DNA from: a virus
Length of the DNA: 31,037 bases
Strand: one strand, 5' to 3'
IMG/VR virus record: IMGVR_UViG_3300022074_000226
Location: 1-31,037 of that record
Shown here: piece by piece, positions 2,655 through 28,355 of the stretch
How positions within the stretch are numbered: the stretch's first letter is position 1
Layout: each line of letters opens with the position of its first letter
Translations under genes and position numbers: made by a program
The notes under the pieces: model-generated
The model's input: only the letters and a program-made list of their open reading frames with translations
What the model was told of the DNA's origin: nothing
The model's database searches: none

Positions 2655-4241
2655 ATGGAAAAGCAGAATGAAGTCATAGCTAGGTTTGAATACCTAGAAA
2701 GCCAGCGTTCCAACTGGGATAGCCATTATCAGGAACTGGCAGACTACATGCTGCCACGAAAAGCCGATATTGTGCGTAAGCGCAGTCGCGGTGAAAAAAG
2801 AACGGAGCTTATATTTGACGGTACTGCACTGCAAGCCGTTGATTTACTTGCATCTTCTTTGCACGGAATGCTTACAAGCGGAGCTACGCCTTGGTTTCAT
2901 TTAACCCTAAAAGATGACCAGCTAGGCCGTAATGAAGAAGTGCAAGCTTGGTTAGAAGATACCAGTTCTCGTATGATGAGAGCTATAACAATGTCTAACT
3001 TTGAAACCGAAGTCCACGAAATGTATGTGGATCTGGTTGTTTTTGGCACGGGCTGTATGTTTGTCGAAATGGACAATACCAGCTTACGATTTAGCACACG
3101 GCACATATCAGAGTTTTATGTAGCTGAAGATCAGTATGGAATCGTTGACACTGTATTTCGTAAGTACAGATTGCCAGCAAGACAAGCGGTGCAAAGGTTT
3201 GGCTTAGAAAACGTAGGCAAGTTTATTAAAAAAACATTTGAGAAAAAGCCTGATGAGGAAGTAGCTATTCTTCATTCTGTAATGCCACGCAAAGAACGCG
3301 ATCCTACTAAACGGGACAATAAAAATATGCCTTTTGCTTCTGTGTATATCTGCATGGAAACAAAGATGGTTATACAAGAAAGCGGGTTCCAAGAGTTCCC
3401 ATACGTTGTTCCGCGCTTCCTCAAGGCAACTGGCGAAGTGATGGGGCGTTCCCCAGCTATGGTGGCGTTGCCAGATGTTAAGATGCTTAATCTAATGTCA
3501 AAGACCATTATACAAGCTGCACAGAAACTAATTGATCCTCCGCTTTTGGTTCCTGATGACGGATTTCTTCTCCCTGTCCGTACCCAGCCTGGGGGACTCA
3601 ACTTCTTTAGAAGTGGCACAAGAGATACAATTACGCCACTAAACACAGGCGCAAACATACCTATTGGCCTGAGTATGGAAGAACAGCGCAGAACGGCTAT
3701 ACGTTCAGCATTCTATGTAGATCAGCTTCTAACAGGCGGTTCGCCTAATATGACAGCTACAGAAGTTGTGCAACGCCAAGAAGAGCGTATGCGCGTTATC
3801 GGGCCAGTACTAGGGCGTTTGATGAATGAGATGCTACGCCCAATGATTGATCGTATATTTGCTTTAATGTTACGGGCAGATATGCTGGCAACACCGCCAG
3901 AAGTTCTACAGGGTCTTGATGTAGATGTTGAGTATGTATCACCACTAGCACGCGCACAGAAATCAAGTAGCCTTAACAGCACAATGCAAGCACTAGAAAT
4001 ACTGCTTCCATTAGCTCAAGCGTTGCCAGTAGCCGAACATATTAATGCTGATGGTTTGGTAAATCACATTATGGACAGCCTTGGCGTTCCTAAGAAAGTT
4101 GTAAACCCACAGTCTGAAGTTGACGCCGTAAGAGAAGAACAAGCGGCACAGCAAGAGGCTATGATGGCTCGTCAGGCAGAAACACAAGATGTACAAGATG
4201 TAGCTCAATTAGCGCAAGCATCAAGGATGGTATCTAAATGA
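2655..4241 (+). CDS. Portal protein (T7-type head-to-tail connector)
   Basis: This protein forms the ring at the capsid vertex through which DNA enters and leaves and to which the tail attaches. The 528-residue length matches T7 gp8-type connectors (about 536). Family-typical segments are visible: an N-terminal region with WDSHYQELADYMLPRK, the central LIDPPLLVP block around residues 291-299, PGGLNFF shortly after, and MTATEVVQRQEE near residue 366. The last is followed by a long helix-forming stretch (the clip/wing to stem region). The C-terminal 40 residues are Gln/Ala-rich. It overlaps the next gene by four bases. Assignment to the head-tail connector family is firm; I see no oddities. Confidence 0.95.
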   Translation: MEKQNEVIARFEYLESQRSNWDSHYQELADYMLPRKADIVRKRSRGEKRTELIFDGTALQAVDLLASSLHGMLTSGATPWFHLTLKDDQLGRNEEVQAWLEDTSSRMMRAITMSNFETEVHEMYVDLVVFGTGCMFVEMDNTSLRFSTRHISEFYVAEDQYGIVDTVFRKYRLPARQAVQRFGLENVGKFIKKTFEKKPDEEVAILHSVMPRKERDPTKRDNKNMPFASVYICMETKMVIQESGFQEFPYVVPRFLKATGEVMGRSPAMVALPDVKMLNLMSKTIIQAAQKLIDPPLLVPDDGFLLPVRTQPGGLNFFRSGTRDTITPLNTGANIPIGLSMEEQRRTAIRSAFYVDQLLTGGSPNMTATEVVQRQEERMRVIGPVLGRLMNEMLRPMIDRIFALMLRADMLATPPEVLQGLDVDVEYVSPLARAQKSSSLNSTMQALEILLPLAQALPVAEHINADGLVNHIMDSLGVPKKVVNPQSEVDAVREEQAAQQEAMMARQAETQDVQDVAQLAQASRMVSK

Positions 4242-5571: not shown

Positions 5572-6447
5572 TCATCAGAAATCACCACGGCATTTGTGCA
5601 ACAATACTCTGCAAACGTGCAGATGTTATCACAGCAGATGGGTTCTCGTTTGCGTGATACGGTGCGGATTGAAAATATTGTTGGTAAGAATGCCTTTATA
5701 GATCAGATTGGTGTGGCAACGGCACAGCTACGCACATCGCGAAATGCAGACACTCCACAGATTGATACCCCTCACGGGCGTAGACGTCTTTCTCTAGCTG
5801 ACTACGAGTATGCTGATCTCATTGACGATCAGGATAAAGTTCGTATGTTGATTGATCCGACTTCATCTTACGCTATGGCTGCTGCTGCTGCTATGGGACG
5901 TGCGATGGATGACGTTATCATTGCTTCTGCAACTGGTGCTGCCTCAACAGGCGAAACTGGTTCTGGCACAGCAAACCTAGATGCAACTACTAACTCAGTA
6001 GGTTCTGCATCTTCAAACGATGGACTAACTGTTGCAAAACTAGTTGAAGCAAAGCGTAAACTAGATGTGCAAGATGTTGATCCTTCGATCCCACGCTACA
6101 TTGCGGTTAGCCCAAAGCAGATCGAAGATTTGTTAGGAACAACCCAAGTAACAAGTTCTGATTTCAACACAGTCAAAGCTTTGGTTTCTGGCGATGTGGA
6201 TACCTTTATGGGCTTCCGCTTTGTCATGTCAAACCGTCTAAGCATTGACAGTAACGACATCCGTAAGTGTTTTGCATGGGCTGAAGATGGTCTTACCTTG
6301 GGTATTGGTAAGGACATTTCTGCTAGGATTGATGAACGCGCAGACAAAGGTTATGCAACCCAAGTTTACTATTGCATGAGTATCGGTTCGGTACGCATGG
6401 AAGAAAACAAGGTTGTACAAATCTTCTGTGATGAAACCCCAGACTAA
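5569..6447 (+). CDS. Major capsid protein
   Basis: The 292-residue protein has the features of the podovirus capsid family that includes BPP-1 Bbp17. These are an N-terminal helix with FVQQYSANVQMLSQQMGSRL, then RRRLSLADYEYADLIDDQDKVRMLIDP around residues 71-97, and a helix rich in alanine (YAMAAAAAMGRAMDDVI, about 101-117). A Ser/Gly/Thr-rich loop at about 120-150 follows. The C-terminal part (IGKDISARIDERADKGYATQVYY, then RMEENKVVQI) fits the closing strands of an HK97-type fold. It follows the scaffold block and the strongest ribosome binding site of the region. No cleavable N-terminal delta domain is evident, consistent with a separate scaffold gene. Confidence 0.9.
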   Translation: MSSEITTAFVQQYSANVQMLSQQMGSRLRDTVRIENIVGKNAFIDQIGVATAQLRTSRNADTPQIDTPHGRRRLSLADYEYADLIDDQDKVRMLIDPTSSYAMAAAAAMGRAMDDVIIASATGAASTGETGSGTANLDATTNSVGSASSNDGLTVAKLVEAKRKLDVQDVDPSIPRYIAVSPKQIEDLLGTTQVTSSDFNTVKALVSGDVDTFMGFRFVMSNRLSIDSNDIRKCFAWAEDGLTLGIGKDISARIDERADKGYATQVYYCMSIGSVRMEENKVVQIFCDETPD

Positions 6448-7593: not shown

Positions 7594-10329
7594 ATGGCGC
7601 GGATTTCCAGCATTATAACTAATTTCCGCGCTGGAGCCTTGTCTCCGCGTTTGTTTGGACGCATAGATCTAGCTAAATACAATGAGGGTGCAGAAACCCT
7701 ATCTAATATGATGGTCTTTCCTCAAGGCGGTATTACTAGACGGCCTGGAGCGTACTATGCTGGTGCATCAAAAGATGGCGGCAAAGTAAGGTTAATGAAC
7801 TTTGAGTTTAGCGATGAGCAAGCTTACGTTCTTGAGTTCGGTGCTAATTATATCCGTATATTTAAAGATGGCGGTATAGTTACTGAAGCGGCTAAAACAA
7901 TAACAGCTATTACAAAAGCCAACCCAGCAGTCGTAACTGCAAACTCTCACGGTTATAGCAACGGTGACAGAGTTATGATTTCTGGCGTTGTAGGGATGAC
8001 ACAAGTAAACAATGTTGAGTTTACAGTGGCTGGCGTCACCACTAATACATTTCAGTTGTCTGGCGTAAATAGTTCAGCATACACCACGTATGGCAGTGGC
8101 GGCACATCTGGTAAGATTGTAGAAATAACCACAACTTATTCTGTTACAGAAATATTTGAGTTAAATCATGCACAGTCTGCGGATGTTTTATATCTAGCTC
8201 ATAAAAACCATGAACCAGCAAAGCTCACTAGAACAGTGGCTCACACTGGATGGACACTTGCCGATATAGAATTTTACAATGGCCCATATTTAGATGAGAA
8301 CATTACCACAACAACATTACACGTTTCAGCGGAATCAGGAAGCGTAACAGTTACCGCATCTGCTAGTACATTTGAGGCTGGTCATGTTGGTTCTGTATGG
8401 CGGTTGCGTGAGATTATTGAGGCAGCCCATCCAGAGTGGGAAACAAACACTACCTATGCTCAGAATGATGAAGTTCGTTTTGGTGGTAATGTGTATCGCA
8501 ATACAACTGCTGGTAATACAAACGGTGGCAAACTACCGCCTGTTCACACAGATGGTGATGAAACATACGGATCTATTACTTGGAAGTTCTTGCACAGTGG
8601 CACTGGTAGCATGGTAATAACTGCTGTAGCCAGTGCAACAAGCGCAACAGCAACAGTGCAAACTAAAAGCGGTTTCTTGCCTAAAGCCTTTGTCGGATCA
8701 AGCGGAGCATCTACTCGTTGGTCAGAAGGGGCGTTTAGCGGCGTTAGAGGCTTCCCCAGAGCCGTTGCGTTCTATGAGGAGCGTTTGTACTTTGCAGGGA
8801 CTACACACCAGCCACAGACCGTATTTGGGAGTGTTTCTGCTGACTTCGAGAATCATTCACCAGGGACGAATGATGACGATGCAGTAAGCTTTACTATTGC
8901 ATCAGATCAGGTAAACGTAATTAAGCACATGCTTCCTGCACGTTTCTTGCAAATACTGACTACAAGCTCAGAGTTTACGTTATCTGGTGGTTCTGGCACA
9001 CAGCCTGTTACACCTACAAACGTAAATGTATTGCGTGAAACTACCTTTGGCATATCAGATATTAGACCATTACGGGCTGGCAACAGTACAATTATGCTAC
9101 AAAAGGGTCAGGAAAAGGTTAAAGAGATTACCTTTGATTTAGACACTGACGGCTTGCTTGGCATCGATCTAAGTATTCTTGCAGACAATATACCGCGTGG
9201 TGGCCTGACTGACATGGTGTGGCAGCAAGAGCCTGAGTTATTGCTTTGGTTTGTACACACTGATGGCAGATTGATCGGTTTGACTTATGACCGTGCTAAT
9301 GGCGCAGTCGGATGGCATGAACACACTATAGGCGGTACAAGCGCACAAGTCACAATAACAGTAAGTGATTACGCAAACATAGCTGTCGGCACTACTTTGG
9401 TATTAACAAAAAGCGATGGCACACAAGTTACATTTACATCTGAAGCGGCTGGGGGAACATCACCAGCTTCATCGCTAGGGTTTAGACCAAACGAAAGCAA
9501 CGACACCACAGCAGACAACATTTTTACTGCTGTTAATGCACACGCAGATTTTGTTGTAGAAAACCCAGCAGCGGCAGTCGTTACTATAAAAGAGGTTGCG
9601 CCTACGGCTGGCGGTTTATTGTCAATCAAAAGTTCTGATACAACTAGATTAACCACGACAAACCAAGCAGCGGCTATTGTTGAAAGCATTACAGCTATAC
9701 CAAGCGGATCTGAAGATCAGGTTTATGTATCTATTAAAAGAGAAGTAAACGGTAGCACTGTTCGCCATATATGCTTTTTAAGCTCTATCTACTTTAACGA
9801 CACTATTACTGATGCCTTTTTTGTTGATAGCGGTTTAACATACGATAGCACTGCAACAACCACCATTAGCGGCCTTAACCACCTAGAAGGCGAGGTTGTA
9901 TCTATATTAGCTGATGGATCTACGCATCCTGATAAGACCGTAACTGACGGTACTGTTACTTTAGACAGAAGCGCAAGTAAGGTTCATATAGGTTATGGAT
10001 ACACATCTTTTGTAAAAACACTGCGCTTGGAAGGCGGTGCTGATGATGGTATTTCGCAAGGTAAAATCAAGCGTATTCATGGTGTTACCGCTAGATTCTT
10101 AAACACTGTTGGGGCAGAGATAGGCTCTAACCTCACTGGTTTGGACAGAATACCTTTCCGCGATAGCAGCATGGAAATGGATGAAGCTGTGCCAATGTTT
10201 ACAGGCGATAAAGAAATATCATTCCCATCTGGTTACGATACAGATGCACAGATTGTTATTAGGCAGAATCAACCTTTGCCAATGACAATACTTGCAATCA
10301 TGCGGAGGTCTAATACTTTCGATGCTTAA
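7594..10329 (+). CDS. Tail tubular protein B / tail nozzle protein
   Basis: The 911-residue protein begins like other podovirus nozzle proteins: NFRAGALSPRLFGRIDLAKYNEGAETLSNMMVFPQG-type text, then RRPGAYYAG and FEFSDEQAYVLEFG. Two inserted modules are visible. Residues about 105-173 (PAVVTANSHGYSNGDRV to YGSGGT) match the E1-FCCH-like beta-domain often found in phage tail proteins. Residues about 278-335 (WETNTTYAQNDEVRFGGNVY to ITWKFL) look like a carbohydrate-binding module with paired aromatic residues. Residues about 585-700 form a further Thr/Ala-rich insertion. T7 gp12 has 794 residues, so the extra length is accounted for by these modules. Its job is to form the distal tail tube; the insertions may bind surface sugars. 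Confidence 0.88.
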   Translation: MARISSIITNFRAGALSPRLFGRIDLAKYNEGAETLSNMMVFPQGGITRRPGAYYAGASKDGGKVRLMNFEFSDEQAYVLEFGANYIRIFKDGGIVTEAAKTITAITKANPAVVTANSHGYSNGDRVMISGVVGMTQVNNVEFTVAGVTTNTFQLSGVNSSAYTTYGSGGTSGKIVEITTTYSVTEIFELNHAQSADVLYLAHKNHEPAKLTRTVAHTGWTLADIEFYNGPYLDENITTTTLHVSAESGSVTVTASASTFEAGHVGSVWRLREIIEAAHPEWETNTTYAQNDEVRFGGNVYRNTTAGNTNGGKLPPVHTDGDETYGSITWKFLHSGTGSMVITAVASATSATATVQTKSGFLPKAFVGSSGASTRWSEGAFSGVRGFPRAVAFYEERLYFAGTTHQPQTVFGSVSADFENHSPGTNDDDAVSFTIASDQVNVIKHMLPARFLQILTTSSEFTLSGGSGTQPVTPTNVNVLRETTFGISDIRPLRAGNSTIMLQKGQEKVKEITFDLDTDGLLGIDLSILADNIPRGGLTDMVWQQEPELLLWFVHTDGRLIGLTYDRANGAVGWHEHTIGGTSAQVTITVSDYANIAVGTTLVLTKSDGTQVTFTSEAAGGTSPASSLGFRPNESNDTTADNIFTAVNAHADFVVENPAAAVVTIKEVAPTAGGLLSIKSSDTTRLTTTNQAAAIVESITAIPSGSEDQVYVSIKREVNGSTVRHICFLSSIYFNDTITDAFFVDSGLTYDSTATTTISGLNHLEGEVVSILADGSTHPDKTVTDGTVTLDRSASKVHIGYGYTSFVKTLRLEGGADDGISQGKIKRIHGVTARFLNTVGAEIGSNLTGLDRIPFRDSSMEMDEAVPMFTGDKEISFPSGYDTDAQIVIRQNQPLPMTILAIMRRSNTFDA

Positions 10330-26013: not shown

Positions 26014-26276
26014 ATTAAAGGCTCACCACCAGCCGCAAGGTACTGAGTAAGGCACTCAATGACATACGCCTCAGTCAGATACCCATAGCTTGTGTGACCA
26101 TCTATAGGAATGATGTGCTTGGCTTTCATAGGTTGGAAGCCATGCGCTTCTATCATTCTAAACAATCCCCATCCACTTAAAGTAAGGCCAGCATAGTAAT
26201 CACTAGCTGCTGGCCTCGCTTCTGCTAGGCTCGTTTGATTTCCATTCTTGAGTAAAACAACATTGTCTTGTGCCAT
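26010..26276 (-). CDS. Hypothetical protein at the end of the leftward operon
   Basis: The 88-residue product has no recognised domain. Its body (GWGLFRMIEAHGFQPMKAKHIIP, then YLTEAYVIECLTQYLAAGG) looks like a small helical protein. GGGAG lies about ten bases before the ATG. Its first 74 bases overlap the end of the neighbouring 66-residue gene in another frame. The stop codon overlaps that of the opposite-strand AT-hook gene. Confidence 0.6.
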   Translation of the reverse strand: MAQDNVVLLKNGNQTSLAEARPAASDYYAGLTLSGWGLFRMIEAHGFQPMKAKHIIPIDGHTSYGYLTEAYVIECLTQYLAAGGEPLI

Positions 26277-26403
26277 AACAAAGCAATCTCCCTAATCCAT
26301 TAATAACCCAAGTGCCAGCTTTCAACCCGTGCTTTTCTCCGCATCTATCACAAGTAACTGATGTTTCTGTGTGGCTGTACTGGCGTTTGGGTTTGTTTCG
26401 CAT
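26203..26403 (-). CDS. Small Cys-rich, probably zinc-binding protein
   Basis: The 66-residue product has a CxxC pair at residues 18-21 (CDRCGEKH) and further cysteines at 42, 48 and 49, suggesting one zinc site. The N-terminus is basic (RNKPKRQ). GAGGAA lies six bases before the ATG, a good ribosome site. The gene follows the structured intergenic region directly, so it is the first gene that region could control. The C-terminal Ser/Glu-rich part overlaps the next gene and may be poorly constrained. Confidence 0.6.
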   Translation of the reverse strand: MRNKPKRQYSHTETSVTCDRCGEKHGLKAGTWVINGLGRLLCYGTRQCCFTQEWKSNEPSRSEASS

Positions 26404-26417
26404 TTATTCCTCATATG

Positions 26418-26540
26418 AAAAAAAATATACGGTGATGCAATTACTTGGCTATGATAAAAGTGGTTACTTGCAAGCTTAACGCATAGCGCATTACATCTGT
26501 CGTCCGATGCCGTATCACCGCTTTCGAGTAAGCAACCACT
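26418..26540 (-). ncRNA. Candidate structured RNA with interleaved stems and a U8 tract
   Basis: The 149-base gap between the SSB-like gene and the Cys-rich gene folds on the leftward RNA. P1 pairs 26540-26530 (AGTGGTTGCTT) with 26469-26459 (AAGTAACCACT), 11 pairs with one G-U. P2 pairs 26520-26514 (CGGTGAT) with 26436-26430 (ATCACCG). P3 is a local hairpin of TAATGC and GCGTTA (26493-26477), again with one G-U. P1 and P2 interleave as in a pseudoknot. An eight-U tract (26425-26418) follows P2. The two G-U pairs would be C-A mismatches on the other strand, which points to a leftward RNA. It may be a small RNA or a leader that governs the two genes downstream. Confidence 0.5.
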
Positions 26541-26552
26541 AACTTAATTTAA

Positions 26553-26897
26553 CTAAAATGGTATATCACTGTCATCAAGATCTTCTATTGGCGCAGTCTT
26601 TGGATGATGTTGTGCCTGTACTGACTCTGCTACAGGCTTTAACCCACCCTGGGACACACCGTCAGAGATGCTATCGCCAGCTTGATAGGCAGATGCTGCC
26701 CTGATGCTGATACCGATACTGCCATCATCATTAATAAAACCACTGACGCTATAATTTTGGTCTGCTCTTAGATGAATGTCAGCAGGGCTACCATCTTTGA
26801 ATGGCTTCCATTTGCTGTTGCCATAATCTGCTTTTGACTTATCGTCTGTGTTCTTAAACAAACGCATTGAACATACTGTGTGATACTTCATTGCCAT
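26553..26897 (-). CDS. Single-stranded DNA-binding protein (SSB-like, acidic DIPF tail)
   Basis: The 114-residue protein ends in DLDDSDIPF, almost the conserved tip of bacterial SSB (acidic run, then DIPF), which docks replication and repair partners. The body (residues 1-75, with WKPFKDGSPADIHLRADQNYSVSGFI and SIGISIRAASAY) has strand patterns compatible with an OB-type fold but does not match classical SSB closely. A Gln/Ser/His-rich linker joins the two. AAGGAG, eight bases upstream of the ATG, lies in the end of the previous gene. It would coat single-stranded DNA during phage replication and recombination. Confidence 0.7.
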   Translation of the reverse strand: MAMKYHTVCSMRLFKNTDDKSKADYGNSKWKPFKDGSPADIHLRADQNYSVSGFINDDGSIGISIRAASAYQAGDSISDGVSQGGLKPVAESVQAQHHPKTAPIEDLDDSDIPF

Positions 26898-27564: not shown

Positions 27565-27716
27565 TACAATTTCTCCTTACTTATCCCCAGCTTGTCGGCA
27601 ATGAGATGTATGAATACTTCCCATGTTTTCTCGACTGTGTTTAGCTTTGTTTCCAGATCTATTACCCTAGCACATAGCTCATCTATGCGCTGTTCTAGTT
27701 CTTGTTTCTCAGTCAT
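27564..27716 (-). CDS. Small coiled-coil protein (50 residues)
   Basis: I place the start at 27716, where GGAG lies nine bases upstream, rather than at upstream codons inside the neighbouring gene. The product TEKQELEQRIDELCARVIDLETKL is one heptad-rich helix, then KTWEVFIHLIADKLGI. It overlaps the previous gene by eight bases and the next by TAATG. A dimerising accessory of the recombination proteins is possible; no family is recognised. Confidence 0.6.
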   Translation of the reverse strand: MTEKQELEQRIDELCARVIDLETKLNTVEKTWEVFIHLIADKLGISKEKL

Positions 27717-28041
27717 TATCTGGCTCCGTATAAAACTCTGTTGCCCACATGATAAGCTGGCCTCTACCGCTTTTACCTTTGCGCTTACGGCTATCAACTT
27801 TAATCAAGCCTTTCTCTTTTAGCTGCTTGTATCTAGCTGTGACGGTGCTATAACGGTGATGTGGCAGGGCATTTAGTACCTCGTCTGATATGCACCCTGT
27901 CACCCCAAACTCCCAGATAGCATCTAAAACAACGCTTTCCATGTGTGAGGCATCAATGCTTGTAGCCGCATCGTGGCTGGTAGCAGGATCATTACGTCGA
28001 ACCAGCTTGTATGCTGGTGTATCAAAAAGATCGTTCATCAT
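27709..28041 (-). CDS. Winged-helix DNA-binding protein
   Basis: The start at 28041 is preceded by AGGA with seven-base spacing and overlaps the previous stop codon (TAATG); the TTG further upstream is unlikely. The 110-residue product has RRNDPATSHDAATSID at residues 15-30, then a helical segment VVLDAIWEFGVTGCISDEVL, HRYSTVTARYKQLKEKGLI (recognition helix and wing start, about 62-80) and a basic RKRKGKSGRGQ wing. This is the usual layout of small phage winged-helix proteins. It could regulate the operon or help replication initiation. Confidence 0.65.
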   Translation of the reverse strand: MMNDLFDTPAYKLVRRNDPATSHDAATSIDASHMESVVLDAIWEFGVTGCISDEVLNALPHHRYSTVTARYKQLKEKGLIKVDSRKRKGKSGRGQLIMWATEFYTEPDND

Positions 28042-28355
28042 TACTTGATCCTTTCGCAACGGTAAGTTTCTGTGCCTTTGACAATGCGAGTTTTAAGTGA
28101 CTTTTTGCCATAATAAACATTCATAAAGCTATGCAGTCGATTACGCATTTGTGCATTAGGAACAATCGTTACATCGCCAACCTCTATTTTTGACAACAAA
28201 TTATGCAAGTCGCCAGTACGTATCCTGCCATTAGAAACAGTCACATCGAATGGCACAATTTTAGGGGGCGTAATAGGGGGTATTGCGCCACTTTTTTTAG
28301 CGTTAAACACCGCGTCCTTTATCTTCATAAGATATTTCCAAGTAATAACTTCCAT
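28041..28355 (-). CDS. Hypothetical basic protein of the recombination operon
   Basis: I use the ATG at 28355, overlapping the exonuclease stop codon (TAATG), with GGAG six bases upstream. The 104-residue product has a hydrophobic and basic start (ITWKYLMKIKDAVFNAKKSG), a Pro-rich stretch (IPPITPPKIVPF) and then a region with IEVGDVTIVPNAQMRNRLHSFMNVYYGK. The last part has the feel of a small helix-turn-helix or nucleic-acid-binding fold ending in a basic strand (TRIVKGTETYRCERIK). No family is recognised. Confidence 0.6.
   Translation of the reverse strand: MEVITWKYLMKIKDAVFNAKKSGAIPPITPPKIVPFDVTVSNGRIRTGDLHNLLSKIEVGDVTIVPNAQMRNRLHSFMNVYYGKKSLKTRIVKGTETYRCERIK

Follow-up and report, generated by a model that had tools for sequence, protein, structure and literature searches.

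Comparative sequence evidence for a conserved double-pseudoknot RNA in three unrelated phage contexts

Structured RNAs are known from phages, and to our knowledge few structured noncoding RNAs of environmental phages have been described. In the viral DNA analyzed here (IMG/VR record IMGVR_UViG_3300022074_000226, a stretch of 31,037 nt hereafter called the window), two genes of a leftward operon are separated by a gap of 149 nt at 26404-26552, raising the question of what this gap encodes. A sequence-only reading had placed in it a leftward RNA with pseudoknot-like pairing, possibly a switch-type terminator. Comparison with relatives in other phages bears out the knotted leftward RNA, since compensatory changes are found in the homologs, and leads to a different fold and a different reading of its role.

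The gap, its neighbors and its relatives

The gene upstream of the gap (26553-26897, minus strand) encodes a 114-aa protein with the acidic C-terminus DDSDIPF, which is probably a single-strand-binding protein (ssb); the name is putative, as the protein has no Pfam or PHROG match. Downstream lies a gene (26203-26403, minus strand) for a 66-aa protein with a CxxC motif, which is kept in L002-L009, in L005 and L006 as a relative. The gap is the sole sizeable one in the leftward operon, as had been noted from the sequence and as was confirmed up to 29245; the other apparent gap, at 27565-27708, is occupied by a short ORF with an internal ATG. Farther upstream, a 116-aa protein encoded at 27709-28059 (minus strand) matches the penicillinase-repressor family (BlaI-type winged helix) just above the Pfam cut-off, and is a possible regulator of the operon.

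Searches with the neighboring proteins identified close relatives in L002, L010 and L023, in which the RNA is 98% identical to that of the window, and in L003 and L022 (82%); none was found in isolate phages. A 16-nt core piece, GCGCTATGCGTTAAGC, was then searched in IMG/VR and led to two further settings, with L027 found via a looser pattern. As a result, the element, here named RNA-B, was located in three contexts, with a single copy per contig. In the first (window, L010 and L022), it lies between the ssb gene and the CxxC gene. In the second (L021 and L027; RNA 80% identical), it lies between a DUF932 gene and a gene for a 98-aa protein in a temperate phage carrying integrase- and repressor-like genes. 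In the third (L013, L014, L016, L018 and L019), a more distant RNA-B is located 3' of a 66-67-aa ORF, where an operon reaches its 3' end and faces the DUF6378 and primase-helicase genes, which are convergent with it. The pattern matches L011, L012, L015, L017, L020, L024-L026 and L028-L043 were rejected because the wider core and the partner arms are missing, as was L046, the sole match among the GTDB genomes, which is also contained in a long open frame. L021 (~7672-7718) and L027 (matching site) carry, between RNA-B and the DUF932 gene, a 13-bp hairpin, AAATGGTGAATAA...TTATTCACCATTT, which is possibly a terminator and would make RNA-B a separate transcript there.

Database searches returned no known counterpart. 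No Rfam 15 family matched the whole window at the gathering score; searches of the RNA region of the window and of L018 with E values of up to 10 gave nothing credible, and L021 gave sub-gathering matches only, mostly in flanking sequence. BLASTN of RNA-B against isolate phages and plasmids, two core-pattern scans of 84,980 GTDB species genomes and scans with the loop or P3 freed yielded no relative or new member, ARAGORN found no tRNA or tmRNA, and the literature searches retrieved no description. RNA-B is thus, as far as these tools reach, an undescribed structured phage RNA within the databases and genomes scanned.

Fold of RNA-B and the comparative evidence for it

The minus strand of 26427-26540 is predicted to encode a conserved structured RNA of ~115 nt, all parts of which are given below on that strand. 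Helix P1 joins the 5' arm AGTGGTTGC (26532-26540) to the 3' arm GTAACCACT (26459-26467). In the window alone it extends to the 11 pairs that had been proposed, AGTGGTTGCTT (26540-26530) with AAGTAACCACT (26469-26459), including one G-U, and it passes the compensatory-change test in homologs. P2 pairs ATACGG (26510-26515) with CCGTAT (26427-26432). P3, an 8-pair helix that had been overlooked, joins GATGTAAT (26490-26497) to ATTGCATC (26434-26441), the latter preceded by a conserved GTA. P5 is formed by GACG (26501-26504), within an invariant CG..CG.CA motif, and CGTT (26478-26481). A candidate P6 between AGCG (26519-26522) and CGCT (26485-26488) is tentative: its pairs (A/G-U, G-C, C-G, G-C) are possible in all ten sequences, with a single one-sided change. 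The loop GCGCTATG (26482-26489) and AAGC (26474-26477) are identical in 10 of 10 family sequences, and the unpaired joining base between P3 and P2 (26433) is always A. Together with CG..CG.CA, these make up ~20 mostly unpaired core letters that are nearly invariant, partly as an effect of the search, since the ten sequences were found through a GCGCTATG-type core or close kinship.

The predicted topology is a double pseudoknot, in which P1 crosses both P2 and P3. The hairpin P1 would enclose the 5' arm of P2 and the small hairpin P5, with the 5' arm of P3 in the P5 loop. The 3' arms of P3 and P2 form one continuous strand (P3, A, P2), which would thread back from downstream to pair with the two 5' arms. 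A weak promoter-like pair, ATGACA-18-TAAATT (26546-26575, minus strand; 9 of 12 matches), ends 6 nt before P1; it could start RNA-B, and matches of such quality are expected by chance.

Evidence from the single sequence is suggestive only, as the nested folding energy of the 123 nt is no better than that of shuffles (z = +0.82); nested minimum-energy folding is uninformative here because the structure is knotted. Among 1000 dinucleotide shuffles of the 123 nt, an interleaved stem pair equally strong arose in 2 and an equally strong single stem in 20. It is the comparative evidence that settles RNA-B. Ten distinct sequences from the three unrelated contexts were aligned, falling into two main groups: window, L010, L021, L022 and L027 in one, L013, L014, L016, L018 and L019 in the other. 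The groups align gap-free over 42 nt (5' arm of P2 to AAGC) and 18 nt (GTA, P3 3' arm, A, P2 3' arm). Variable linkers were excluded, because MAFFT alignment of whole RNAs sets the 3' arms in the wrong place between the groups; with linkers excluded and blocks chosen by the author, the alignment leans towards structure. Standard pairs occupy 94.8% of 270 cells, against a shuffled mean of 81.0, and none of 500 shuffles reached the observed value. The covariation score was 0.495 versus 0.259 for shuffles, again reached by 0 of 500. Two-sided changes occur in 12 of the 27 pairs (matched by 4 of 500 shuffles), many of them sharing one origin since there are just two main groups; variation within groups is also seen at P1 pairs 5 and 7 and P2 pair 6. 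Sliding the helix partners lowered pairing to 30-44%, and an exhaustive 5-bp scan of 2278 placements, with thresholds of at least 90% paired and any compensatory pair, returned only P1, P2, P3 and P5. Moreover, a covariance model built from the five window-type RNAs, with P2 and P3 entered as pairs, recovered each of the five RNAs of the second group at its proper position (E 3e-7 to 3e-4); the ten sources searched gave no further matches. Two local hairpins, TAATGC/GCGTTA and CATC/GATG, were dropped, as they do not keep all their pairs in relatives.

Support differs among the helices, with P3 together with P2 being the best supported in this alignment. P3 is paired in 98.8% of cells, and three of its pairs show two-sided changes (U-A/C-G, G-C/U-A, A-U/C-G). 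In P2, five of six pairs differ at both positions when the two groups are compared (for example G-C/U-A, C-G/A-U, A-U/G-C and U-A/A-U). P1 is paired in 87.8% of cells, a figure that counts three outer pairs unused by the second group, and four of its pairs have two-sided changes, with variation such as G-C/G-U/A-U and U-A/C-G. P5 is paired in all cells and shows one-sided, consistent changes only (G-U to A-U in L022, G-U to G-C in L027, A-U to G-U in L021).

On the leftward strand, 21 cells hold G-U and 3 hold A-C, which identifies the element as an RNA of that strand. This asymmetry argues against a DNA element such as an origin, recombination or packaging site, for which proximity to the ssb gene and the mobile-cassette behavior described below might speak, and a chance fold is excluded by the covariation and by the model matches across groups; taken together, these explanations are very improbable.

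The conserved P2 also bears on termination. The register favored by the sequence-only reading, CGGTGAT with ATCACCG, does exist in the window, interleaved with P1, as 7 pairs, or 8 if a flanking G-U is counted, but it is not conserved, being broken by a G.A mismatch in L021, L022 and L027. The register named as its competitor, ATACGG with CCGTAT, is the one that passes the comparison with homologs. The two registers in the window, and the U8 tract that follows the P2 3' arm at 26425-26418, as had been reported, would suit a switch-type intrinsic terminator. However, besides the loss of the alternative register, the tract is not conserved: it is U6 in L022 and UUUCUUU in L021 and L027, and no U tract directly follows the structure in the second group. 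In addition, a hairpin ending at the tract would need a loop of ~77 nt, no terminator-like site was detected in the window, and a short-loop, G+C-rich hairpin plus U run kept in relatives was not found. Such a terminator is hardly probable, the least so of the explanations considered.

Gain, loss and a second knotted RNA

RNA-B is present or absent as a unit, like a cassette. L005 and L006 are syntenic with the window and have no RNA-B; in its place, at ~3336-3475, is a short ORF overlapping the CxxC gene, indicating that the gap holds interchangeable inserts. Likewise, no RNA-B match was found in the 77-80% primase relatives of L013-type phages that were checked. The window and L003 share 98.3% identity in the ssb gene and 94.0% in the next gene, whereas RNA-B is only 82% identical; RNA-B of L022 and that of L021, an unrelated phage, are 79.5% identical. 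These values suggest that RNA-B alleles, which differ between near-identical phages, have been replaced, with fast change as an alternative.

A second covarying, pseudoknotted phage RNA, RNA-A (GTTGAACGG...CCGCAAGC), is present in L056, L064, L075 and other primase relatives, ~400-500 bases past the primase gene on the opposite strand (~1140-1235 in L018). In L013-type phages RNA-B lies directly downstream of RNA-A, and the relatives L055-L078 carry RNA-A alone. The four helices of RNA-A are paired in 98.6% of 286 cells, compared with 35-52% for slid versions; two-sided changes are seen in 13 of 26 pairs (a count reached by 53 of 500 shuffles), and no shuffle of 500 reached its covariation score. 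Rfam gave no credible match to RNA-A in L018. Like RNA-B, RNA-A has a P1 hairpin, a single A linking two downstream pairings (M-A-K in RNA-A, P3-A-P2 in RNA-B) and AAGC beside a small inner hairpin. In RNA-A, however, it is the other pairing element that lies within the inner hairpin, and the conserved letters differ; the two RNAs are alike in topology. The cassette pattern, along with a second RNA of like topology, suggests that phages exchange such RNAs like accessory genes. It is conceivable, and put forward tentatively, that RNA-A and RNA-B represent an undescribed superfamily of small double-pseudoknot RNAs that unrelated marine phages exchange in cassette form, and that are either a new class of self-cleaving ribozymes or RNA effectors directed at host machinery. 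On the strand opposite RNA-A, L075 shows a weak match (5611-5687, plus strand; E 0.0027, below gathering) to suhB/mmgR, an alphaproteobacterial sRNA, possibly due to a terminator-like hairpin there.

Function and comparison with known systems

Comparison among the ten sequences shows the fold, the strand, the near-invariant core, the lack of a fixed neighboring gene, and gain and loss as a unit. Since the core is nearly invariant, the helices vary freely and no neighbor is fixed, two readings fit: an RNA that stands alone and binds a partner, or a ribozyme that cleaves itself. The reading we prefer, held with less than even confidence, is that early transcripts carry RNA-B as a structured, stand-alone RNA of the phage. 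In the window, it would be transcribed early on a polycistronic RNA, flanked by ssb and the small gene, and would persist, or be released, as a folded RNA. Such a module would most likely show its invariant core to a protein or RNA of either the host or the phage, instead of regulating one particular downstream gene. Against this stands the location of RNA-B upstream of a gene in two of the three contexts, and a cis role is possible.

One such role would be that of a riboswitch or other ligand sensor for the downstream gene, as might be suggested by a pseudoknot with an invariant core ahead of the start codon in the window and in L021 and L027. This is unlikely because unrelated genes follow RNA-B (one for a 66-aa CxxC protein, another for a 98-aa protein), and because in five phages the next gene lies on the opposite strand, leaving no downstream gene on the strand of RNA-B. 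The 3' arm of P2 also ends well ahead of the ribosome-binding site and leaves it uncovered, and the three unrelated contexts, one with a convergent gene, match neither the one-pathway genes nor the expression platform of a riboswitch; overall, we regard a sensor as improbable. Nor does RNA-B resemble the ToxI RNA of type III toxin-antitoxin systems, in which short repeats in tandem precede the gene for an RNase toxin: there is one copy per contig, the 66-aa and 98-aa genes that follow RNA-B match no family, and L013-type phages have their next gene on the opposite strand.

A cis-acting mRNA element is less remote, though still rather unlikely. RNA-B would then be a knotted block for protection of the transcript, for instance against exonucleases, or for its processing, and its U-rich tail would help translation of the next gene. 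RNA-B does lie inside or at the end of operons, in the second group at the operon 3' end after another knotted RNA, and a U-rich stretch precedes the ribosome-binding site in the window, L010 and L022. However, a mere block needs no invariant core, the U tract is not kept, and relatives of identical gene order dispense with RNA-B.

The main rival to the stand-alone reading is a new class of self-cleaving ribozyme, which we consider unlikely, if somewhat less so than the cis element. Such a ribozyme would cut the transcript between ssb and the small gene or, in the second group, trim the operon 3' end. The freely varying helices around ~20 nearly fixed unpaired or core letters would suit it, as would a compact knotted fold in phage noncoding gaps, sense to its neighbors and amid unrelated genes. 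Protein-binding RNAs would nevertheless be expected to show an equal conservation pattern, neither a cleavage site nor a known catalytic motif is recognizable, and no Rfam ribozyme family matches the RNA region at E up to 10. With its defined fold, nearly invariant core and recurrence across unrelated phages, RNA-B lends itself to direct testing.

In placement, RNA-B is similar to the isolated HDV-like theta ribozymes of phages, which occupy noncoding gaps sense to their neighbors (PMC10879173). Like HDV-like and theta ribozymes, it has interleaving P1 and P2 in a nested pseudoknot (PMC10879173). Unlike them, it has no short P3 hairpin joining P2 to P1; its 8-bp P3 instead pairs the inner hairpin loop with the strand equivalent to the unpaired J4/2 of HDV. 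HDV-like ribozymes carry the catalytic C at the first position of that junction (PMC10879173), whereas in RNA-B a single A follows the paired P3 and precedes the 3' arm of P2 in 10 of 10 sequences, leaving no place for a catalytic C. Other phage and marine motifs were named from comparative genomics, such as wcaG and manA (PMC2864571). Whereas these are mostly 5'UTR regulators tied to gene classes and RNA-B has no fixed gene partner and fits no Rfam model, RNA-B is like them in being a covarying RNA of marine metagenomes and phages.
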